Source of the DNA: Candidatus Pantoea edessiphila
GTDB taxonomy: Bacteria > Pseudomonadota > Gammaproteobacteria > Enterobacterales > Enterobacteriaceae
Direction: 5' to 3'
Assembly: GCF_002933355.1 (NCBI RefSeq)
Contig: NZ_PDKU01000004.1
Span: 1 to 64,000 of the forward strand
DNA: 64,000 bases
Part shown: positions 17,373 to 57,571 of the stretch, one piece after another
Layout of the letters: every line of letters starts with the position of its first letter
How positions within the stretch are numbered: position 1 is the first letter of the stretch
The notes under the pieces: generated by a model
Databases searched by the model: none
What the model was told of the DNA's origin: nothing
What the model saw: only the letters and a program-made list of their open reading frames with translations
Program-made: the position numbers and the translations under genes

Positions 17373-18431
17373 TTAAACATTATTACTATTACTTAAGGAT
17401 TCATGTTGTTCAAGAGAAATTTCAGATAATGATTTATTATTATTTAATAACATTTCACGTAATTTATTATCAATTTCTTTTGCTATTGTTACATTATTTT
17501 TGAGAAAAATACTGGCGTTTAACTTACCTTGACCAATTTTATTGGATTTATAACTATACCAAGAACCGGACTTATCAATAAGTCCATATTTTACACCTAA
17601 TTCTATTAGTTCACCAAAAATATTAATACCTTCACCATACATAATTTGAAAATCAGCTTGTTTAAATGGAACCGCTATTTTGTTTTTAACAACTTTAACT
17701 CGAGTTTCACTACCAATAATATTATCTCCTTCCTTTATTGAACCAATACGACGAATATCAAGTCGAATAGAAGCATAAAACTTTAATGCATTACCACCGG
17801 TAGTTGTTTCTGGATTACCAAACATAACACCTATTTTCATACGGATTTGATTAATAAAAATTAATAATGTATTAGATTGCTTAAGATTACCAGCTAGTTT
17901 CCGCATTGCTTGACTCATCATACGTGCTGCAAGTCCCATATGTGAAGCACCAATTTCACCTTCAATTTCAGCTTTAGGAGTTAAGGCTGCTACAGAATCA
18001 ACAATTATAACATCGATAGCACCTGACCGCGCCAAAGCATCACAAATTTCTAATGCTTGTTCACCAGTATCTGGTTGTGAACATAATAAATTATCAATAT
18101 CAACTCCAAGTTTTTTAGCATATGTAGGATCTAAAGCATGTTCGGCATCAATGAAAGCACAAGTTTTTCCTTTAAATTGAGCAGCCGCAATAACTTGAAG
18201 AGTCAAAGTCGTTTTACCAGAAGATTCAGGACCATATATCTCAACAATACGACCTAAAGGAAGGCCTCCTGCTCCTAGAGCAATATCTAAAGATAATGAA
18301 CCTGTTGATATGGTTTCTACATCCATTGAACGATCTTCTCCTAAACGCATTATAGAACCTTTGCCAAACTGCTTTTCAATTTGAGATAATGCTGCTGCTA
18401 GTGCTTTCTTTTTATTTTCATCAATTGCCAT
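17373..18431 (-). CDS. recA: Recombinase RecA
   Basis: Forms filaments on single-stranded DNA, drives strand exchange and triggers LexA-type cleavage. It has 352 residues (E. coli 353). Walker [10 protein letters not shown] near residue 66, the L1 loop region ([24 protein letters not shown]) and L2 region ([25 protein letters not shown]) are intact. TAGGAG precedes the ATG. I saw no clear LexA box in the 65 bases upstream. Its presence gives the RecB/RecC proteins of this window a partner. Confidence 0.97.
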
Positions 18432-19231: not shown

Positions 19232-21781
19232 ATGGATCTTTTTGCGCATACACCTATGATGCAACAATATTTAAAAATCAAATCTGAATATCCAGATATC
19301 TTATTATTTTACCGCATGGGTGATTTTTATGAATTATTTTATGAAGATGCTAAACGTGTATCACAAATGTTAGGAATATCATTAACTAAACGTGGAAATT
19401 CAGGTGGTAAACCTATTCCTATGGCAGGTGTGCCTTACTATAATGTTGATAATTATCTATCCAAATTAGTGAAATTCGGTGAATCTATAGCAATTTGCGA
19501 ACAAATACCTAATGCTTTACAAACAAAAGGCTTAGTTGATCGTAAAGTTATTCGTATTATTACACCTGGTACTATTAGTGATGAATCTTTTTTACAAGAA
19601 AAATACGATAATATCATAGCAGCAATTATTCAAGATGAACACAAATGTAACTACGGTTATGCTACTTTGGATATGAGTTCTGGTCGTTTTCTTATTAAAG
19701 AATTGATTAATGCAGAATTTATGGCTATAGAATTATATAAAAGCAACCCATCCGAATTACTTTATCCAGACAATTTTAAAAATATCCATTTAATTAAGGA
19801 TTGTCGTGGATTAAGAAATCGTCCAATATGGGAATTTGACATTGACACTGCAAATCAACAATTAAATCTACAATTTGGTACAAAAGAACTAAAAGGATTT
19901 GGAGTTGAAGATGCCTTTTTATCTTTAAAGGCAGCTGGTTGTTTAATACAATATGTAAAAAATACTCAATGTAATGAAAAGTTACCTCATATAAAATCGA
20001 TAATAATGGAACACCCACAAGATAATATTATAATGGATTCTAATACATGTCGTAATTTAGAAATAACAAAAAACATATATGGTGATACAAAAAATACATT
20101 GAATGAAATATTAAATAAAACAATGACATCTATGGGTAATAGAATGTTAAAAAGGTGGTTGCAAATACCAATCCGCAATATTGCTCTTGTAGAGCAACGC
20201 CAAGAATCTATTTTAGAACTACAACAATTCTATAAAATAATACAGCCCATTTTACAACAAATAGGAGATTTAGAAAGAATAGTAACACGTATAGCTCTTC
20301 GCAATGCACGACCACGTGATTTTGTTCGTATACGTCATGCTTTCCAAATATTACCTGCTTTAAATAAAATCAGCTTACAATTTAAGACGAAACAATTAAA
20401 ACAAATACACGAACATATAGGAGAATTTAAAGAATTATGTAATTTACTTAAACAAGCAATAGTTGAATTACCTCCTATCTTGATTCGTGATGGAGGAGTT
20501 ATTGCTACTGGTTATAATACAGAACTAGACAAATTGCGAATTTTAGCTAAAGGAGCAAACGATTATCTAAATGAAATTGAAAAACAAGAACGAATAAAAT
20601 TAGGATTAGAAACATTAAAAATAGGATTTAATAGTACGTGTGGATATTATGTTCAAGTGAATAAAAGTAAAAGTAATAAAGTTCCAGAACATTATATAAT
20701 TCGTCAGACATTAAAGAATGTTAATCGCTATATTATTCCTGAATTAAAAACATATGAAAGTAAAATAGTTGTTTCAAAAGCAAAGTCTTTATCGTTAGAA
20801 AAAAATCTATATGAATCGATATTTGATTATTTTATGCCTTATATTGAGAGACTACAAATGAGTTCATATTCCATAGCTGAGCTTGATGTACTAAGCAATT
20901 TAGCAGAACGTGCTCTAAATCTTGAATATTGTAGGCCTGTATTACAAAATAAACCAATAATAAATATTATTAATGGTCGACATCCAGTAGTAGAAAAAGT
21001 ATTACAAGAACCATTTATTCCTAATTCATTATCTTTATCAACAGAAAATAGAATGTTAATTATTACTGGACCTAATATGGGTGGTAAAAGCACTTATATG
21101 CGTCAAACTGCTCTAATAGTTTTGATGGCTTGGATTGGAAGTTTTGTCCCAGCTAAAGAAGCATTAATAGGAAATTTCGATCGTATTTTTACTAGAATTG
21201 GAGCATCAGATGATTTAGCTGCGGGTAGATCTACTTTTATGGTCGAAATGACTGAAACAGCAAGTATCTTGCATAATTCAACTAAGAATAGTTTAGTTTT
21301 AATGGATGAAATAGGTAGAGGCACTTCAACATATGATGGTTTATCTCTTGCATGGTCATGTGCTAATTATCTTGTTAATAAAATTAAATCTATTACATTA
21401 TTTGCAACACATTATTTTGAATTAACTTTTTTACAAAAGAAGACAACAGGTGTAATAAATGTATATTTTGATGTAATAGAACATGAAGATAATATTGTAT
21501 TTATGCATACTATTAAACAAGGAAGCATGAATAAAAGCTATGGGTTAGCTGTAGCTTTATTAGCAGGTATTCCTAAAGAAGTTATTAATTTAGCAAAAGA
21601 CAAATTAAATGAGTTAGAGATGGAAAAGCATCTTTCTCCCTCTAACTCAGTAAAAAACAACTCTAGGCTAATAGAAAAAAATACATCAATTATAAGTGAT
21701 ATAATAAAAAAAATAGATCTAAATAATTTAACACCCTATGAAGCTTTAGATTTAATATATTTATTAAAATCAATAACTTAG
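19232..21781 (+). CDS. mutS: DNA mismatch repair protein MutS
   Basis: Recognises mismatches and small loops and recruits MutL and MutH. It has 849 residues (E. coli 853). The mismatch-binding motif GDFYELF (Phe-x-Glu) is near residue 33. The ATPase has Walker [15 protein letters not shown] near residue 613, Walker [17 protein letters not shown] and the ATHYFELT segment. The C-terminal dimer/tetramer region ends [17 protein letters not shown] precedes the ATG. mutH is also in the window; mutL would have to lie elsewhere. Confidence 0.97.
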
Positions 21782-41210: not shown

Positions 41211-41272
41211 AATTACTATAAAATAAACATATGTATTAATATTTATCTTAATCATTTAAATTAATAAATAAT

Positions 41273-44200
41273 TCATTGTTTCTTCTTACCAATTAATACA
41301 TCTAGTTTTTCAATTATAGTATTACTAGGATATATATTTAGTATTCCGTTATTAGACGATTCATTTATACCTCTTATAAATAAATAAAATATACCACCAA
41401 AATATTTCTCATAACTATAATCGTGTAATCTTTTTTTCAGATATCGATGAAATGCTAACGTACATAAATTATGTTGCATTGCAGAACTTCTATTAATGAT
41501 TTCATCTTCTAAAGATCTTAATTCGTAGCAATAGTTACTTTCACCTAAACAATTTAATTTATAATATAATAAATAATACTTACCATGCCAAAGAAATACT
41601 AAATCTATACAACCTGTAATAATTCCTTTTACTTGATTGCAATGAATTTTATCTTCATATTCAGATAACACGCACCCATTGTTTGTTGATGTATTAATAT
41701 TTAAAATAATTGAAGAGTTTCTAATAGGAAGAAAAAATTTCATATTTCTCATATGTTTTATATTTTTTATCTCTGCAAGATTTAATCCTTGTAAATTAAG
41801 TGGTTTATTCAATATTAAAGTTAGCCACGCATTTATAACTTCTAATAAAGACAGCGGTAAACCGTATTGATTTAATTTAGATTTAAGCCATTTTTGATTA
41901 ACATATTTATTTAAATCTATGGATGTAAATAAGTTATTCATAAATTGGTTAAATTTTAAATTATTTGGAAAATAATTATTTAATGATAATATTTCTTTTT
42001 TATTTTCTTGTTTTATGATATTTTGTTTTTGGTTTACCATATCTTCTATATCATTAAATGAAGATAAAGAAATATTAAAATTATTTAAAATTAACCAATC
42101 GTCAGAAATATTTCGACTCATTTTAAGACTATCTAATGTCATGTCAACATCAATTTTACTTTGTAAAGCTTCACCATAATTAGTATTAGTAGTGATTAAT
42201 TTAATATCTATTGGATTTAATTTCTTAATACGATCTATTAATTCGTTTAAATTAGTATTTTGATCACAATTTAATAGATAACCAAGTGCACTTTTATACA
42301 AATCATTAGAATCTTTTCTTTTATTTAATCCTTTTACAAAAGTTGCAATACCAATACTACAATGATATATAGATCTAGTCACTGCTACATACAAAAGACG
42401 TAAATCTTCACTAATTCTGTCTTGTTTTTTCATAGTCAGTTTTTTAATATTTTCTTCCGAAAAGATAATATAATTTTCACTAAAACTAACAGCAAAAGGT
42501 AACCATATTATAGGATATTGTAAACCTTTTGATTTATGTATGGTAATAATACGTATAAGGTTATGGTCTTCTTCTAAACGTAATTGTTCATCATCAATAT
42601 GGTTATTTAGATTATTTATTTGTTGTGAAAAAAATATTAAAAGATCATTTGGACCGATTAATGAATTAGATTTTACCTGCAATAATTCAATTATATGCAT
42701 TAAATTTGTTAATCTACGTTTACCATTATATGAAGCTAATATATTTTCAGCTATGTTATAATCTGAAATAATATTACGAAACATTGACATTATGCCATGT
42801 TTTTGCCATAGTTTTTTCCATGCAAAAAATTTCTTTATTAAAATATTTAATTCTATATTATCATTCATTAATAATTCAATATTCTTTGATTCAAATGAAA
42901 AAATAGAAGTTGCCAATGCCGTACGTATTAATCTATTTCTTATTGGATATTGTATTGCTTTTAGTAAATATAATAATTCACGTGCTTCTACAGTATTGTA
43001 AACACAAGTAGTATCAGAAAGATAAACCGATTCAATGCAAAATAAATTAAGTGCATTACGAATTAAACTAGCTTCATGACGATTACGTACTAGTACTACA
43101 ATATCAGAAGCCTGTAAAACACATAAATTATTATCTTTACTTAAAAAAGTATGTTGTTTATTTTTAGCTAATAACCAATGGTTTATATCAGCAGCACACT
43201 GTCTTGCTATATCTTGTTCATAGTCTATTAATTTTATATTTTTATTAGGATGTATCCAAAAACGCATTGCAGGATATTTTTTTTCATTAATAATAAGTTT
43301 TAATGTTTGATTATTAATAGCAGGTTTAATTGGGTAGAATGGAATTTCTGAAGACAAGAAAGGAAAGATTCTTTGTGAAAAAAGACAATTTACACTATTT
43401 ATCATTTCAAATGATGAACGCCAATTTACATCTAAAGTATAAACATCATTAATTTCATTACGCATATTAAAATAAGTAAATATATTGGCACCACGAAATG
43501 AATAAATTGCTTGTTTAGGATCACCAATAATTATTAATATTAGATTTGATTTTGTTGCATAAATTTTATGAAATATTCGATATTGTTGCGGATCTGTGTC
43601 TTGAAATTCATCAATTAATAAGACTGGAAAATAATTTCTAATATTATCTGCTAATAAATCACCATTAGGATGTTTCAATGCTTTATCTAAATTATATAAC
43701 AAATCATCAAAACTAAATAAACCTTGCAAATTTTTTTCTCTATCCATAGCATGAGTTATTTTAGTTAATGCTTCTGAAATAAAGACATATTTTAATGATG
43801 GAGGATCAATTAAAAGTTCATCTATCAATTGAAATAATTTAAAATTAATTGGTTTATCTATTTTATTTTCTTTATTAATTTCAGAATATCTAAATCTTAA
43901 TAACTCATTGGGTATTTGATAATCTATAGTTAAGGTATTAGCCCACACCGTTATTTTATTAATCCAATTATTTAAATTTTTATTATTATAAACACGCTTG
44001 TTAATTTTAAAAGCATTAATAATTTTTGGTATATCCTTATGTAAGGATATCCATATATTTTTTATTGAGTTAATATTAGATAAATTCTTAATGTGTTTTG
44101 AATTTAAATTGTCATCATCTAAAGATAAATATCTTATCTTTCTTTGAAAGAAAGGGTATAAAGTAAATAAAAAATCTTCTGCATTTTTCCATTCATTTAG

Positions 44201-44752
44201 AATTATTTTAGCTATATCCATTGACACAGAACAAAAAAATTTCTGCCAAAAATCTGAAGTAAGTTTTTTTAATAGTATATATTCATCAGATAATATTTCA
44301 TTTTTAAATAATGTATTCAAATCATAAACAAAAGATTTTATTATCTTTCTACAAAACCCGTGCATTGTATAAATAGCTGCATTACTAATATTTTGTTCTG
44401 CAAACAATAGTCTCTCGATAGCTTTATGCCTATCTTGGATCTGTTCGATTAATAATTGATGCATAGGATTAGAACTTTCACCACGTATACAACTTAAACG
44501 TAACTGATGAATATCATTACTAATACGATTACGTAATTCAATTGTAGCTACTTCAGTAAAAGTTACTACTAGAATTTCTTCTATAGAAAAAGGTCGATAG
44601 TATTCATGGTCACCTTTTAGTCCCAATAATAATCTTAAATATAATAAACTAATCGTAAAAGTTTTACCTGTTCCAGCTGAAGCTTCAATAAGTATATTAC
44701 CTTGTAGAGGAACTGTTATAGGATTTAATATTTTAATATCTAATTTATTCAT
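41273..44752 (-). CDS. recB: RecB helicase subunit with degenerate nuclease site
   Basis: Subunit of the RecBC(D) double-strand-break repair enzyme: a 3'-5' helicase that loads RecA. It has 1159 residues (E. coli 1180). Superfamily 1 motifs are intact: ASAGTGKTF, LIDEFQDTD, GDPKQAIYSFRGAN, NWRSS, HKSKGLQYP and LYVAVTRS. In the C-terminal nuclease domain the spacing matches E. coli exactly, but residues equivalent to His956, Asp1080 and Tyr1114 are Asn939, Tyr1063 and Cys1097 (FMNNLF, LLYYKLN, QHNLC). Asp1050, Lys1065 and Gln1093 remain. recD is missing between recB and argA, and ptrA between recC and recB. Confidence 0.95.
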   Translation of the reverse strand: MNKLDIKILNPITVPLQGNILIEASAGTGKTFTISLLYLRLLLGLKGDHEYYRPFSIEEILVVTFTEVATIELRNRISNDIHQLRLSCIRGESSNPMHQLLIEQIQDRHKAIERLLFAEQNISNAAIYTMHGFCRKIIKSFVYDLNTLFKNEILSDEYILLKKLTSDFWQKFFCSVSMDIAKIILNEWKNAEDFLFTLYPFFQRKIRYLSLDDDNLNSKHIKNLSNINSIKNIWISLHKDIPKIINAFKINKRVYNNKNLNNWINKITVWANTLTIDYQIPNELLRFRYSEINKENKIDKPINFKLFQLIDELLIDPPSLKYVFISEALTKITHAMDREKNLQGLFSFDDLLYNLDKALKHPNGDLLADNIRNYFPVLLIDEFQDTDPQQYRIFHKIYATKSNLILIIIGDPKQAIYSFRGANIFTYFNMRNEINDVYTLDVNWRSSFEMINSVNCLFSQRIFPFLSSEIPFYPIKPAINNQTLKLIINEKKYPAMRFWIHPNKNIKLIDYEQDIARQCAADINHWLLAKNKQHTFLSKDNNLCVLQASDIVVLVRNRHEASLIRNALNLFCIESVYLSDTTCVYNTVEARELLYLLKAIQYPIRNRLIRTALATSIFSFESKNIELLMNDNIELNILIKKFFAWKKLWQKHGIMSMFRNIISDYNIAENILASYNGKRRLTNLMHIIELLQVKSNSLIGPNDLLIFFSQQINNLNNHIDDEQLRLEEDHNLIRIITIHKSKGLQYPIIWLPFAVSFSENYIIFSEENIKKLTMKKQDRISEDLRLLYVAVTRSIYHCSIGIATFVKGLNKRKDSNDLYKSALGYLLNCDQNTNLNELIDRIKKLNPIDIKLITTNTNYGEALQSKIDVDMTLDSLKMSRNISDDWLILNNFNISLSSFNDIEDMVNQKQNIIKQENKKEILSLNNYFPNNLKFNQFMNNLFTSIDLNKYVNQKWLKSKLNQYGLPLSLLEVINAWLTLILNKPLNLQGLNLAEIKNIKHMRNMKFFLPIRNSSIILNINTSTNNGCVLSEYEDKIHCNQVKGIITGCIDLVFLWHGKYYLLYYKLNCLGESNYCYELRSLEDEIINRSSAMQHNLCTLAFHRYLKKRLHDYSYEKYFGGIFYLFIRGINESSNNGILNIYPSNTIIEKLDVLIGKKKQ

Positions 44753-44840
44753 TTTTTATTTTATTACATAATAATATTTTTACAAAAAATCATGTGTCAA
44801 TGATAAGATACTAATATATAAAGTTATATATTTTTGCTTT

Positions 44841-47800
44841 TTATAATAATTTAATATCTTTATTTGCTTGAATAACGGGTAAATACCATCTTACTGCAGA
44901 TTCAGTAATTTGTTGTATTTCTGTTGATCCTAAACTACTATATAAGCGTTGCAAATAAGGATCTTCTTTTTCGCCTATTGATACTTTATCTTTTCCGTTC
45001 CAAGCTTCTAGTAAACGATTATGTGCTTTTGTTTTAGTATTGCTATCATTAAGTAAGATTTTATTTTTTTTGTCATAACAACACATTAACCAAGCACTAC
45101 CACTTTTTTTTAATAACAATAAAGGCTGACTCATTCCAAAAAAATAACCCTTAATATATTTATTTAATAGATTAATAGCTTCATGTTTTGGGATGCTGGT
45201 GAAGCACCAAAGGCTTTTAGAAATACCAAATTGTTTGCTAGTACCATATCCTCCCATTGCACAATATATCAAGTGTTCTAACCAAAACAGTAGTCCATCT
45301 CTAATATCAAGAATATTAGGAGACCAACGTAACAATCCATCTTCTTGAACTGTATTTAAATAACCTGTTAATGTTATATCTTGCAATTTTAAATTAATTT
45401 CCCAAACATAGTTATGTTTAATATTATCAATAACTTGCATTGCTACTTGTTGTATTTGTTTCGTTTGATTTTGCCAAAGTAGCTTTGGAAATAAATCTAA
45501 AGGTAAATTATTATTTATTTTGTTTTGGTCCAATACCTTATGTAAGGTATCTATATTATTATTGTGTTCTATCAATGCATTTAATAGTTGAGATTTGTTT
45601 CTATAAATATTGAAACTTTCAAAATCAGATAAATTTTTTTGTAATGGATAATATTTTTTAGGAAAAAATATATTTAACCTTTTTTGAAACCAAGCCCTTA
45701 CTGGATGGTGCCAAAAATATAATAATTGTTTTAAATTTAAACAATTTAACTTAGGTGCGCTTAATATATTAATAAAGCTTAATTGTGATTTACCTAACCC
45801 TTGTGCTGCTGGCAACCATTCTGAGGCAAAACTTTGTGTTTTTGAATTTAATATAAAATTGCTCGATGAAAACGGTGCACGAGTGTGATATTGTACCAAA
45901 TGTTTTTGAATGTTATTACAACTTTTATCTATTTCAATATTTTTATCTCCTTGAATATAAAAATTTTGACCAATATATTCTAATAGATCTGTAATTAAAC
46001 TGGATGGATAATATTCTGTATTATCTTGCATAGATTTGCCAACATAACTTATGTAAAGTTTATTTTTAGCTGCAATTATAGTTTCAAGAAATAAATACCG
46101 ATCTTCATCAGCAATATTACAGTCTCCTTTTCGAGGTTGCTTATACATTAAATTTAATTGAGTTAAATTTGGTTTTCTAGGGTATATATCTTTATTTATA
46201 CCCAATATACATATTACCTTAAAAGGAAAAGAACGCATCGATGTTAAATTACAAAAATTAATTTTGCCAGAAAGAAAAAAATTGCTAATACGTTTTTTAT
46301 CGATATAATTTAAAAACATATTACGTAACAACTTAATTGAAAACTTTTTAATATTAAATTTTATTCCAGATTGTGTTACAATGTTCCAATTTTTTTCTAA
46401 AAATAATAAAATAGATCCAGACTCATTATCTACAATAAAAAAATCGTTAACTAATTGTCTAAATAAGAGATACCAATCTTTTAATGAGTAAGGTTTTATC
46501 AGTATTATAGTCCAACGATGAATTTGCAACATAAGATTAATCAAATTTACAAGTAACATATTTAATAATACTTCTAAATCTAAATCAGATGAAAAATGTT
46601 TTAAATAATCCTTTTTATCTTTATATAAATGATGTAACAATATATTTTTAACATTGCGTAATATTATACTTTTATTAGAGTTATCTTTATTTGTTAATAT
46701 TTTTTTTAATTCATTTAATTTTTTATAAGTATTAGTATTATCAATTATAATATGTAATAAAAATAATTGTTTTTCATCGATTGAAAAATGGTCTGCTATA
46801 GACTTTACATCTAAGATAGCTAATAATTTTTCAAAAAAACAACTACTATTTGATTCAGATAATGAAAGTAGTTTAAAAAAAACAATAATAATTGAGTTCT
46901 CTATACTAACACAACGATCTGAAATCATAAAAGGCAAATACCGATCATTATGTGTTCTAGAAAATGTTGCTTTAATATATGGCATATAAACATTAATATC
47001 AGCTACCATAACTATAATATCACTTAAGTTAATATCCATATTACAATTTATTAATTTTAGTAAATAATCTTGTAGTGCTTCCACTTCACGTTGAATACTA
47101 TAACAAACATTAATTGAAATAGATTGGTCGTTTACAGCAATACAACGCTTTTGATCATTATATTGCAATTCCTTACGATATAATCCGATAACAGCACTAT
47201 TTTTGAAATTAAGGATATCATTTTGTATGCAATGTAATAAATTATCTTCCTTAATATTAACAAATGCATCAATATGGTTAACTAATTCTAATTGATTCAT
47301 AAAATAAAGATTATCACAACCTAATTTACCCCATGATAATAAAAGCTGGTTGTTAGTATGTAGTTCATAAGTTTCTTTAAAAAATTCTGAAATATATTCA
47401 TCATTAATATAATTATTAACATATTTTTGATTATTTTTTGATCTTTTAAAAAATATACTATGATTATAAATATCTCCCCAATAATTTCTACAAGGGTTAT
47501 TGATAAACCAATGGATATCAATATAATGGCTAATAGTATTTAAAACTTTTAAATGATAGGGAGGAATAGTATTGATCCCGTATATAAATAAACGAGAAGG
47601 CAAAAATGATAGATTTGAATTATTCTGTAATTTGTTAATAAAAGAAGAATAAATATCATTAGACTGATATTGATGTGATTTGGCTACATTATAGGAAATT
47701 AAATCTTTCCAAATAATTGATTGCCATAATTGTTCTTCTCCAAGAGCGCTTACTAGTCCACCACATTCCCAAATATGTAACCAATCTGGTCTATATGTTA

Positions 47801-48212
47801 AATATTTTTCAAATATGTTAGCAACACTTAAGCTAAATTTAAATAAATTACTTTCATTATGACAATTATCGAGATAATTTAAGATAAAATCAAATCTATT
47901 ATTCTTTAAAATTACTGGTATACGTGATATTATTTCCCAGACAAGATCTGTTTTGTCAAAAAAATGTTTAACTGTAGTATTCGGTACTATCTTACTAATG
48001 ATATTCCATATAAAAAAAGTTAATCTAGCAAATTTAATGTTTATAGCAACATCAAAATGTGATGCTATTCCTATTTTTATCCATTTTGCTGTATCTAAAT
48101 TTTGAACAAGTATTAAATCTGATTGAAGTATATCATTATACTGATGTTCAATAACTGAATTTAGTAAAGTTCTAAGCACACTAGATTGATTAGAATGATA
48201 TATATAAAACAT
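44841..48212 (-). CDS. recC: RecC, Chi-recognition subunit of exonuclease V
   Basis: Scaffold subunit that splits the DNA strands and scans for Chi. It has 1123 residues (E. coli 1122), full length. Recognised from its N-terminus (FYIYHSNQSSVLRTL), LILVQN...WIK, FIYGINTIPPYHL, the inactive helicase folds, and the C-terminal region (ESAVRWYLPV), together with its place before recB. Sequence is more diverged than in its neighbours, as is usual for RecC. TAGGA precedes the ATG. It starts 103 bases after thyA on the same strand; gap to recB is 88 bases. Four genes lie between thyA and recC in E. coli (ppdA, ppdB, ygdB, ppdC); none is here. Confidence 0.93.
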   Translation of the reverse strand: MFYIYHSNQSSVLRTLLNSVIEHQYNDILQSDLILVQNLDTAKWIKIGIASHFDVAINIKFARLTFFIWNIISKIVPNTTVKHFFDKTDLVWEIISRIPVILKNNRFDFILNYLDNCHNESNLFKFSLSVANIFEKYLTYRPDWLHIWECGGLVSALGEEQLWQSIIWKDLISYNVAKSHQYQSNDIYSSFINKLQNNSNLSFLPSRLFIYGINTIPPYHLKVLNTISHYIDIHWFINNPCRNYWGDIYNHSIFFKRSKNNQKYVNNYINDEYISEFFKETYELHTNNQLLLSWGKLGCDNLYFMNQLELVNHIDAFVNIKEDNLLHCIQNDILNFKNSAVIGLYRKELQYNDQKRCIAVNDQSISINVCYSIQREVEALQDYLLKLINCNMDINLSDIIVMVADINVYMPYIKATFSRTHNDRYLPFMISDRCVSIENSIIIVFFKLLSLSESNSSCFFEKLLAILDVKSIADHFSIDEKQLFLLHIIIDNTNTYKKLNELKKILTNKDNSNKSIILRNVKNILLHHLYKDKKDYLKHFSSDLDLEVLLNMLLVNLINLMLQIHRWTIILIKPYSLKDWYLLFRQLVNDFFIVDNESGSILLFLEKNWNIVTQSGIKFNIKKFSIKLLRNMFLNYIDKKRISNFFLSGKINFCNLTSMRSFPFKVICILGINKDIYPRKPNLTQLNLMYKQPRKGDCNIADEDRYLFLETIIAAKNKLYISYVGKSMQDNTEYYPSSLITDLLEYIGQNFYIQGDKNIEIDKSCNNIQKHLVQYHTRAPFSSSNFILNSKTQSFASEWLPAAQGLGKSQLSFINILSAPKLNCLNLKQLLYFWHHPVRAWFQKRLNIFFPKKYYPLQKNLSDFESFNIYRNKSQLLNALIEHNNNIDTLHKVLDQNKINNNLPLDLFPKLLWQNQTKQIQQVAMQVIDNIKHNYVWEINLKLQDITLTGYLNTVQEDGLLRWSPNILDIRDGLLFWLEHLIYCAMGGYGTSKQFGISKSLWCFTSIPKHEAINLLNKYIKGYFFGMSQPLLLLKKSGSAWLMCCYDKKNKILLNDSNTKTKAHNRLLEAWNGKDKVSIGEKEDPYLQRLYSSLGSTEIQQITESAVRWYLPVIQANKDIKLL

Positions 48213-50806: not shown

Positions 50807-51484
50807 ATGAATTACTTATTTAATCCTCCGAAAAATAAAATTACCTTACTAGCACGATCTCAAGCATTAGCTGGATTTACAATAGGAAATTTAGCATCTC
50901 TTGCTGGATTGGTAGTTCCAGAAAATTTAAAAAAGAATAAAGGTTGGATTGGTAAATTAATAGAATTATATTTAGGAGCTAATTCACAAAATAAAGCTGA
51001 ACAAGATTTTGTTCATCTTGGAATAGAATTAAAAACTATACCTATAGATTCATCAGGTAATCCAAAAGAATCTACTTTTATTTGTACAGCTTCTTTGATT
51101 AATAATGTTGGAATTTCCTGGAAAACTAGCAATGTTCGTAATAAGCTATCAAGTATTTTATGGGTTCCTATAGAAAGCAATACTAATATTCCTCTCAAAA
51201 ATCGCAGAATAGGCATATCTTTATTATGGCGTCCAAGTCTTAGAGAAGATATTATGTTGCGTAAGGATTGGGAAGAAATTATTAATATGATTATTTTTGG
51301 TCAGGTTAATTATATTAATAATTTTCATGGTATGCTATTAAAACTTCAACCTAAAGCTCTTAATAAAAACATTTTAACTAAAGGAATAGGTGATAAAGGT
51401 GAAAATATTATGACTATACCAAGAAGTTTTTATTTAAGAAAATCTTTTACTAAAATTATATTATCAAATAATCATATAGTCTAA
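50807..51484 (+). CDS. mutH: DNA mismatch repair endonuclease MutH
   Basis: Nicks the unmethylated strand at hemimethylated GATC when activated by MutS and MutL. It has 225 residues (E. coli 229). The active-site Asp, Glu and Lys are in EQDFVHLGIELKTIP (equivalent to Asp70, Glu77, Lys79). ENLKKNKGWIGKL.E and the C-terminal PRSFYLRKSFT also match. Intact MutH implies that Dam methylation and MutL persist elsewhere in the genome. Divergent from rppH, convergent with lysA. Confidence 0.95.
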   Translation: MNYLFNPPKNKITLLARSQALAGFTIGNLASLAGLVVPENLKKNKGWIGKLIELYLGANSQNKAEQDFVHLGIELKTIPIDSSGNPKESTFICTASLINNVGISWKTSNVRNKLSSILWVPIESNTNIPLKNRRIGISLLWRPSLREDIMLRKDWEEIINMIIFGQVNYINNFHGMLLKLQPKALNKNILTKGIGDKGENIMTIPRSFYLRKSFTKIILSNNHIV

Positions 51485-54528: not shown

Positions 54529-55630
54529 CTATAAGCCTAATTTTAAACTGTTTTTTATGAATGGATCTAAATTACCATTTAATACATCTTGTACATTACG
54601 TATTTCTAAACCGGTTCTTAAATCTCTAATACGAGAATCATCTAATATATAAGAACGAATTTGGCTACCCCAACTTATACAGGATTTATTGTTTTCTAAA
54701 AAACTCTTTTCAGCATTTTTCTTTTTCTCTTCAATCTCATATAATTTAGCTTTCATTTGTCTAATGGCTTGTTCTTTATTTTTATGTTGTGAACGACTAT
54801 TCTGGCATTGAGTTACTGTACCAGAAGGAATATGTGTAATACGAACTGCTGATTCTGTACGATTAACATGTTGACCACCAGCACCAGAAGATCTGTAAAC
54901 ATCTATACGCAAATCTGATAAATTAATGTCGATATTAATATAATCATCGAGTTCAGGATAAATAAATACTGAACTAAATGAAGTATGTCTTCTATGACCA
55001 GAATCAAAAGGACTTTTACGTACTAATCTATGAATGCCACTTTCTGTACGTAACCATCCAAAAGCATATCTTCCAGATACATGAATAGTTGCAGATTTTA
55101 TAGTACCAATAATATCTCCTAAAGATTCTTCTATTATTTTAGTTTTAAAACCTTTGTTGTCTAACCATCGCAAATACATACGTATTAACATACTAGTCCA
55201 GTCTTGTGCTTCAACGCCTCCAGAACCAGATTGAAAATCAATGTAACAATCACATTGATCATTATCACCAGAAAACATTTTACTAAATTCTAGCTTATCT
55301 ATATCATGTTCTAATTCTTCTAACTCTATCATGATATCTTTAATTGTATTCTTATCTTCAATGCTTTTCACTAAATTAAACAGGTCTTTAATATCATTTA
55401 ATCTTAGCAAAATTTGATCAAGATTATTAATAATAGTTTCTAAAGAAGATTTCTGTTTATTTAAAGATCGTGCACGTTTATAGTTATTCCATATATTTGA
55501 TTGTTCTAATTCAATATTTATTTCTTCGAGCTTTTCTTTTTTATTTGTATAGTCAAAAACACCTCCTAAGATTATTATTACGTTCAGTAAGACTGCTAAT
55601 AAGATTTTTAATTAAATGTAATTCAATCAT
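54529..55630 (-). CDS. prfB: Peptide chain release factor RF2, with programmed +1 frameshift
   Basis: Terminates translation at UGA and UAA. Translation starts at ATG 55630 and meets UGA as codon 26 (55555-55553), the same position as in E. coli. Just before it are AGGAGG, TGT and the slippery TTT, reading TTT-TGA-C; a +1 shift gives GAC (Asp) and the full protein of 366 residues (E. coli 365). After the shift the SPFD stop-recognition motif and GAGGQHVN (GGQ) catalytic motif are intact. The in-frame open segment alone begins only near 55554. AAAGAGA lies upstream of the ATG. RF2 shortage should raise shifting, giving autoregulation. lysS follows. Confidence 0.96.
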
Positions 55631-55828: not shown

Positions 55829-57571
55829 TTACTTTAAAGGACATAAATACTCAATGATTAATTGAACAAAACGTTTACCACGATATTTTTTTATATCAAG
55901 CTTATATACTAATTCAACTTGATTAACATCAGTATTTGGCCAGATATTTGTATCAACGTTAAATAGCAATCCATCAATTAACGGACCATTATCTAAAACT
56001 CGTAATAAAACATGTAAATGTCTCTTATTTATCAAGCGTTGTCTGATTAATTCAAATTTACCGTCAAAAGTAGGTTCTGGAAAGGATGGACCCCAAGGTC
56101 CTGCTTTACGTAATAAATCAGCGGTTTGAATAGAAAAATCAGATGGTTGTAAAGGTCCATCGGACCATATAATGGTTGAAATCATCTTATCTTGAACTAA
56201 ATCATTAACTAAGTCAGAAAAGTTTTTACTGAACTCTTTATAATGTGATTCTTTAATAGACAAACCAGCTGCCATAGCATGACCACCAAATTTTATCATT
56301 AATTTTGGCTTAATAGTATTCAAATGTTCAAGTATGTCTCTCAAATGTAAATTTTCAATCGAACGTCCAGAACCCTTTAATATCCCATCTCCTATACCTG
56401 TCGGTGCAAAAGCAATTACTGGACGATGAAACCGTTCTTTCAAACGCGAAGCTATAATTCCTACAATTCCTTGATGCCATTCAGGATGATAAACAGTTAA
56501 ACCTAAAGGTAAACTACTTTCTTGTTTCTGTAATACAGAACATAATTTCAATGCATCATTTTGCATGACTATTTCAATTTTTTTACGAGCTTGGTTTAGT
56601 GTATTTAATTCGTTTGCTAAAGCACGTGCTTTAGCTAAATCATCTGTCAGTAATAATGCCACTCCTATTGACATATCATGTAATCTTCCTGCAGCATTAA
56701 GACGTGGTCCTAATATATAGCTAAGATCATCTGTTGATAAATCGTGCAAATCACGTTTCGCGATTTCTAATAATGCAATAATACCTGGTCGACATATTCC
56801 TGCACGTATACGGTTTAACCCTTGCCATACTAAAATTCTATTATTTATATCAAGTGGCACTACGTCAACAATAGTACCAAGAGCAACAAGGTCTAATAAA
56901 TTAGCTAGATTTGGTTCAACCCATTTACTATTAAACCATCCTTTTTCACGTAAATAGGTCCTTAAAGCGGTCATTAAATAAAAAGCAACACCTACTCCTG
57001 CTAATGAACATAAAGGTAACGAACAATTTGAAATATTTGGATTAATAATAGCTGTAGCATCTGGTAAATTGTGACTAGGAAGATGATGATCAGTTACGAT
57101 TACTGGAATTCCATATTTTTTAGCACATTTGATTCCTTCATGAGAAGAAATACCATTGTCTACAGTAAGTATCATATCAGCACCTATCATGTGTAAATAT
57201 GTTACCATTTTTCTTGTTAAACCGTAACCATCTACAAATCGATTTGGTATTAAATATTGCACATTTTGACCACCCATACTTCTTAAAGCTAATACTGTTA
57301 ATGCAGTACTAGTCGCTCCATCAGTATCAAAATCTCCTACTACTATAATCTTACGGTTTTTACTTAACATTTCATGTAATAATACTACTGCTTTATCAAT
57401 ATCATATAATAATTTAAATGAAAATAAATGTTTTGTACTACGTTCTAAATCTTTTGGATAACATAAACCACGATTTAAATAAATACGTTTTAGTAATGGA
57501 GGTAAATCTGCTGGAAAATAATCTTTAACAGTTGCGTGACGTCTAACTAATTCAATTTTATAATTTAACAC
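55829..57571 (-). CDS. recJ: Single-stranded-DNA 5'-3' exonuclease RecJ
   Basis: Degrades 5' ends in recombination and mismatch repair. It has 580 residues (E. coli 577). DHH-family motifs: VVGDFDTDGATSTAL, TVDNGISSH, VIVTDHHLP, NPN, GPRLNAAGRL (motif V) and the DHHA1 segment GSGRS...KFGGHAMAAGLS. The start is GTG 57571, as in E. coli. dsbC and xerD, its E. coli neighbours, are missing. It is the one clearly intact recombination nuclease in the window. Confidence 0.95.
   Translation of the reverse strand: MLNYKIELVRRHATVKDYFPADLPPLLKRIYLNRGLCYPKDLERSTKHLFSFKLLYDIDKAVVLLHEMLSKNRKIIVVGDFDTDGATSTALTVLALRSMGGQNVQYLIPNRFVDGYGLTRKMVTYLHMIGADMILTVDNGISSHEGIKCAKKYGIPVIVTDHHLPSHNLPDATAIINPNISNCSLPLCSLAGVGVAFYLMTALRTYLREKGWFNSKWVEPNLANLLDLVALGTIVDVVPLDINNRILVWQGLNRIRAGICRPGIIALLEIAKRDLHDLSTDDLSYILGPRLNAAGRLHDMSIGVALLLTDDLAKARALANELNTLNQARKKIEIVMQNDALKLCSVLQKQESSLPLGLTVYHPEWHQGIVGIIASRLKERFHRPVIAFAPTGIGDGILKGSGRSIENLHLRDILEHLNTIKPKLMIKFGGHAMAAGLSIKESHYKEFSKNFSDLVNDLVQDKMISTIIWSDGPLQPSDFSIQTADLLRKAGPWGPSFPEPTFDGKFELIRQRLINKRHLHVLLRVLDNGPLIDGLLFNVDTNIWPNTDVNQVELVYKLDIKKYRGKRFVQLIIEYLCPLK

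Follow-up and report, generated by a model that had tools for sequence, protein, structure and literature searches.

Symbionts of the Candidatus Pantoea edessiphila group appear to have lost the RecB nuclease and kept the RecB helicase

The recB gene of Candidatus Pantoea edessiphila, located in the 64,000-nucleotide stretch of DNA analysed here (the window), is predicted to encode a full-length RecB protein in which the helicase is retained and the nuclease active site has been lost. Judged from sequence comparison, this combination of nuclease loss and helicase retention is well supported. The explanation that we consider probable is that RecBC persists as a helicase complex without its exonuclease and probably, where RecB is full length, still serves as RecA loader, with RecJ resecting. 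The loading of RecA by the symbiont RecBC is a step that we infer by analogy with E. coli. The parts of recB are as follows.

41273-44752, minus strand: recB, a RecB-family helicase with dead nuclease site, 1159 aa (open reading frame, family models, PDB match)
42203-44752, minus strand: helicase part, RecB residues 1-850; motifs intact, dN/dS 0.05-0.13 in the 10 pairs of five genus members excluding G003
41276-41977, minus strand: nuclease domain, RecB residues 926-1159; fold predicted intact, active site lost
41936-41938, minus strand: codon 939, AAT (Asn), at the His956 position (this and the next three by alignment and codon reading)
41744-41746, minus strand: codon 1003, AAT (Asn), at an invariant Glu
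41564-41566, minus strand: codon 1063, TAT (Tyr), at the Asp1080 position
41462-41464, minus strand: codon 1097, TGT (Cys), at the Tyr1114 position

The recB frame runs from ATG to TGA, and its translation contains no internal stops. The NCBIfam recB model TIGR00609 matches RecB residues 9-1154 with 935.5 bits against a cut-off of 696.05, placing the protein in the RecB family over its full length; a second recB model, PRK10876, gives 1191.8, below its cut-off of 1697. Residues 7-1153 align with E. coli RecB in PDB. The superfamily 1 helicase motifs are present and, by eye in the alignment, intact in all six genus members, and RecB from the window keeps 45 of the 47 invariant helicase columns. 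An earlier sequence-only reading had described recB as full length with all helicase motifs intact, and this is borne out by the open reading frame, TIGR00609 and the alignment.

The genus was sampled through six genomes: that of the window (837119 bases in 12 contigs), G001, G002 (the Edessa oxcarti symbiont), G003 (the Brachystethus rubromaculatus symbiont), G004 and G005 (Ca. Pantoea edessiphila SoET). The earlier reading had spoken of ant symbionts; the host is a stink bug (Edessinae) and the gut symbiont is Pantoea-related. An origin from the ant symbiont Blochmannia, which has lost recA according to passages of PMC4389277, was rejected: this genus carries recA, and those of its members that have names are symbionts of Edessinae.

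The active-site residues, whose numbers in E. coli RecB we take to be His956, Asp1067, Asp1080, Lys1082 and Tyr1114, were matched by alignment. The row reads N-D-Y-K-Q-C in the window against H-D-D-K-Q-Y, and the set of nuclease residues of RecBCD exonuclease V is incomplete; Asp1050 (GAT), Lys1065 (AAA) and Gln1093 (CAA) are kept. The sequence-only reading had given Asn939, Tyr1063 and Cys1097 as replacements and these last three as retained, and it was right in residues and codons. Its list of losses missed a fourth, Asn1003, at a position that is presumably Glu1020 of E. coli and holds Glu in 111 of 111 outside rows. Relocated catalytic residues, which it had named as grounds for refutation, were not seen elsewhere in RecB by eye in the alignment; a shift of the catalytic residues was also rejected because the predicted nuclease domain superposes on E. 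coli RecB. AlphaFold gave this domain of the window a mean pLDDT of 86.1 and a pTM of 0.83, and the prediction matched E. coli RecB chains with Z of 22.0-26.6 and rmsd of 2.1-3.2 over 227-233 residues (Foldseek was also run), followed by AddA with Z of 11.9-12.8. Sequencing error was likewise rejected, since the change of Asp1080 to Tyr is common to two further assemblies at 61% protein identity, which makes such an error unlikely.

The alignment contained RecB from the window and 116 other rows (24 rows, a further 80 from named records, and 12 stretches, most of them taken from small genomes). Five of these were excluded, namely the genus members L043, L044 and L047, the frameshifted L097 from Providencia, and L133, whose RecB lacks the nuclease domain, leaving 111 rows outside the genus that amount to 104 distinct sequences. 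RecB of L097, a Providencia stuartii record, is broken by frameshifts that may be sequence error. The residues His-Asp-Asp-Lys-Gln-Tyr are found in 111 of the 111 outside rows, several strongly reduced symbionts among them. The 104 distinct outside sequences have 47 invariant columns in residues 1-850 and 23 in residues 926-1157; RecB of the window departs from 2 of the former and 8 of the latter (Fisher p 0.0014). The corresponding helicase and nuclease changes number 2 and 8 in G001 (p 0.0014), 2 and 11 in G004 (p 3e-5), and 2 and 5 in G003 (p 0.035), the four p values coming from related genomes and so not being independent. Ten leave-one-out control rows, each withheld along with its own duplicates, change 0-2 of 47-49 helicase and 0-3 of 23-26 nuclease columns. 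Arg170 and Pro191, two helicase columns invariant in the 111 outside rows, are both changed in all six genus members and perhaps mark a contact that matters only alongside RecD or the nuclease.

Loss of the nuclease extends across all six genomes of the genus: the active site is lost in all four members with full-length RecB, and the working domain in the other two. The His956 position holds Asn in the window, Ile in G001 and G004, and Tyr in G003. Asp1080 has become Tyr in the window, G001 and G004 and is still Asp in G003, where Asp1067 has changed to His and Lys1082, Gln and Tyr are kept as well; Lys1082 has become Arg in G004. A change of the invariant Gly935 to Asn is common to the window, G001, G004 and G003, and Gly931 and Glu1003 are changed in all four, which indicates that the site was probably damaged in the common ancestor and hit again later on separate branches. 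In a RecB tree of 22 rows G003 clusters with the other genus members at a bootstrap of 100. Two independent losses may have occurred despite this value, given a caution about long-branch effects in passages of the paper by the G003 genome authors (PMC8032781). In G002 and G005, RecB stops just past the helicase, near window residue 855, with the helicase frame intact. A decayed remnant of the nuclease domain lies in the 658 bp ahead of argA in G005; in the 248 bp ahead of argA in G002 no remnant was found by tblastn.

The genes that might act together with recB, and the interval in which recD would be expected, are listed below.

44841-48212, minus strand: recC, 1123 aa, open frame intact (open reading frame, family model)
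41211-41272, no strand: 62-bp gap between recB and argA, the recD position in Ca. Pantoea carbekii
17373-18431, minus strand: recA, 352 aa, intact, found in 6 of 6 genus genomes
55829-57571, minus strand: recJ, single-strand exonuclease, 580 aa, proposed partner nuclease

RecC is recognised as the RecC subunit by TIGR01450 (772.5 bits against 582.9), and recC is found in all six genus genomes, split across two contigs in G003. Like the RecB motor, it is under purifying selection. Only 88 bp (44753-44840) separate recC from recB; in E. coli ptrA sits between these genes, and at this place it is therefore absent. Ca. Pantoea carbekii retains recD between recB and argA. In the genus recD, and with it the RecD subunit of exonuclease V, was found in none of the six genomes, nor were recO and recR, the E. 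coli positive control being detected for each of the three. By contrast with these absences recA is strongly conserved in the genus (dN/dS 0.01-0.03), recJ scores above its cut-off in all six genomes with motifs intact by eye in each, and ruvC and ExoI, the latter detected via its C-terminal domain, are also found in 6 of 6. Outside the genus, 14 small or reduced genomes were tested and recJ was found in 3, including the close relative G018, whose RecB nuclease residues are intact. The C-terminal tails of RecA (17373-18431 in the window; L138-L142) are acid-poor across the genus. Those of G002 and G005, with 1 acidic and 2 basic residues, have the fewest acids and offer a weak lead to how RecA might load there without the nuclease domain. 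A change at position 37 or 38 of RecA could replace loaders; this was rejected for the window, where the segment is the same as in E. coli. Elsewhere in the window, mutS (19232-21781) and mutH (50807-51484) are both open and above their family cut-offs in this 0.84-Mb genome, and prfB (54529-55630) seemingly keeps its programmed frameshift: the ATG frame stops at TGA in TTTTGAC after AGGAGG, and release factor 2 carries on in the next frame.

In E. coli strains with a dead RecB nuclease and no RecD, RecFOR contributes in part, a point against the explanation preferred here. Passages of PMC3375238 report that the E. coli RecB1080CD and RecB1067CD enzymes unwind DNA and are without nuclease and RecA loading, that either mutant, once RecD is removed, loads RecA constitutively yet is still nuclease-deficient, and that resection in the recB1080 hybrid pathway is carried out by RecJ; related passages on the RecBCD mechanism are found in PMC2586629 and PMC6212769. 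The sequence-only reading had expected a nuclease-free RecB to act as a helicase and RecA loader. The helicase part of that expectation is supported by sequence, and loading does not follow automatically, because D1080A in E. coli RecBCD impairs RecA loading too (passages of PMC5823372). As recD was found in none of the six genomes, the loader conclusion may nevertheless hold, for a reason which that reading had not given; in G002 and G005, where the domain is gone, it may not hold at all. From the changes at 1080 or 1067, the missing recD, the retained recJ and the missing recO and recR, the likeliest pathway would consist of unwinding by RecBC, resection by RecJ and, where the nuclease domain is still there, loading by RecBC. 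RecBC would bind the double-strand end and unwind it, and RecJ would digest the 5' strand. Where RecB is full length, its nuclease domain, though catalytically dead, would be a RecA-loading platform, freed by the absence of RecD, after which RecA would recombine and RuvC resolve. G002 and G005 have no nuclease domain, and there RecBC would act as a helicase and nothing more, with RecA having to load unaided by the domain; since these two lack the domain yet keep recA, loading by RecBC would not be needed throughout the genus.

Three other explanations must be weighed against a RecBC that has lost its exonuclease and may load RecA. One is ongoing decay, in which recB would be on its way out with the nuclease domain eroding first and neutrally and no function retained. 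It fits the loss of the working domain in two of six species, the decayed remnant in G005, and a nuclease dN (0.36-0.44) that is 1.7-2.1 times the helicase dN (0.21-0.22) in the three pairwise comparisons of the window, G001 and G004. It fits poorly with the helicase, whose dN/dS is 0.026-0.127 in the 15 genus pairs (0.03-0.13 in round figures, the ratios being rough because dS is saturated) and about 0.11 in the pair G002-G005, which has lost the domain, and in which the 2 of 47 changed invariants are the identical two columns in all six species. The nuclease frame, moreover, is open in four species, whereas a neutral simulation of the domain at five distances, from 0.1 substitutions per site upwards, ended each time with 0 of 300 copies open, which argues that the dead domain is still held. 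The nuclease-domain dS is itself saturated (5.4 to 44), so that dN/dS from this domain alone is unusable and dN and the simulation were used in its place; if dS is instead taken as the median over the helicase part, RecC, RecA and RecJ, the ratio comes to about 0.2. The separate dN/dS comparison of the two domains that had been proposed upheld constraint on the helicase and yielded no usable figure from the nuclease domain by itself. The ratio of nuclease to helicase distance is 1.52-1.69 among the window, G001 and G004, above that of Erwinia-Serratia-type rows (0.72-1.32, 10 pairs) and of other reduced lineages (0.52-1.07, 21 pairs), and 1.05-1.09 in pairs with G003 (0.69 on the G003 tip); free-living Pantoea span 1.19-2.05 (10 pairs), a range that takes in the values among the window, G001 and G004 and so speaks against an accelerated domain, and this overlap makes the test partly informative only. 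Decay is on this evidence unlikely, and the earlier view of selective loss of one activity gains from the six genomes, two of which are without working nuclease beside a constrained open helicase.

That the nuclease still works, weakly or via a rearranged active site, would be compatible with the Asp1050, Lys1065 and Gln1093 kept in the window, which include the Asp1067 and Lys1082 equivalents, and with the Asp1080, Lys1082, Gln and Tyr of G003. The equivalents of His956, Glu1020 and Asp1080 are however replaced in the window, His956 and Asp1067 are lost in G003, G002 and G005 have no working domain, and a single change at 1080 or 1067 abolishes the E. coli nuclease (passages of PMC3375238), which leaves this explanation very improbable. 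A stronger competitor, which we regard as tentative and clearly less probable than RecA loading, is that RecBC is only a motor, for example at reversed forks or in the completion of replication, with no RecA loading in any species and the dead domain serving complex stability. In its favour, RecB of G002 and G005 stops where the helicase ends, as does, separately, the 837-aa RecB of G058 (below); the strong conservation of recA, the disappearance of recO and recR, and the dead nuclease domain kept in four species speak against it.

G058, a genome of 348580 bp from another family, carries recC, an 837-aa RecB and then eno and recA (L133:119-8357); the match of its RecB to the two RecB models stops at position 853 of 1175 in one and 863 of 1181 in the other. 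A similar-looking arrangement, partly masked, is present in G060 of the same family, and recJ was found in neither. The case of G058 supports helicase-only RecB as an outcome that recurs, and it weakens the view that RecJ is required. Retention of recJ does not track nuclease loss strictly, being seen in G018 with its intact nuclease and not found in G058, and recJ was rejected as a strict marker of that loss. A division of break repair throughout the genus, with RecBC as motor and RecA loader, RecJ as nuclease, and no RecD, Chi response or RecFOR, and with a bare helicase beside RecA in two species and in a separate 0.35-Mb genome, is a broader proposal to which we give about an even chance.

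In RecBCD three functions are coupled, namely unwinding, degradation and RecA loading, and for which of them reduced symbionts keep the complex is not obvious. This genus separates the functions by evolution, nuclease and RecD going and the motor staying, and offers, in place of a pair of laboratory alleles, a natural experiment whose steps are a point loss, a dead-but-folded domain, a decayed remnant and a clean deletion. If the interpretation is true, selection in small genomes can keep RecBCD for unwinding rather than degradation. RecB nuclease loss in these symbionts is undescribed in the titles and abstract openings of the literature searched, and the words "nuclease", "DNA repair" and "recombination" each occur 0 times in the genome paper on this group (PMC8032781).

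The nearest systems differ from the symbiont RecBC in distinct ways. RecB and RecC are homologous to those of E. coli RecBCD along their length, in a similar recC-recB-argA neighbourhood, but the symbionts have neither RecD nor a complete nuclease site, and so presumably no exonuclease V. A precedent lies inside RecBCD: RecC is a RecB-like protein with inactive helicase and nuclease folds, and it has lost both activities where the symbiont RecB has lost the nuclease only. By analogy with E. coli RecBC (passages of PMC2586629), the symbiont complex presumably does not recognise Chi. Loss of a nuclease domain with the rest constrained is already known from Wolbachia addA, in which, according to passages of PMC4224334, six isopod strains of supergroup B have lost the domain by a stop and the rest shows Ka/Ks of 0.175-0.193. 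There the whole domain is gone and the remainder is under purifying selection, as is the helicase in this genus; the Wolbachia enzyme is however AddAB rather than RecBC, its loss is a truncation rather than a dead-but-folded domain, and recJ, recF, recO and recR are listed for it in those passages. Closest are the E. coli recB1080 recD and recB1067 recD strains. They share with the genus the active-site positions affected, which are 1080 for the window and for G001 and G004, and 1067 for the Brachystethus symbiont; RecD is likewise absent, the helicase is intact, and recJ and recA are present. Their defining combination, a changed catalytic Asp1080 or Asp1067 together with absence of RecD, is found in the genus. 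The symbiont case differs in being natural and in occurring in every genus genome examined, in its residues (Tyr, His), in further active-site losses, and in that recO and recR were not found. By this analogy the RecBC of the genus would be a natural counterpart of the recB1080 recD or recB1067 recD strains, that is, a nuclease-free RecA loader.
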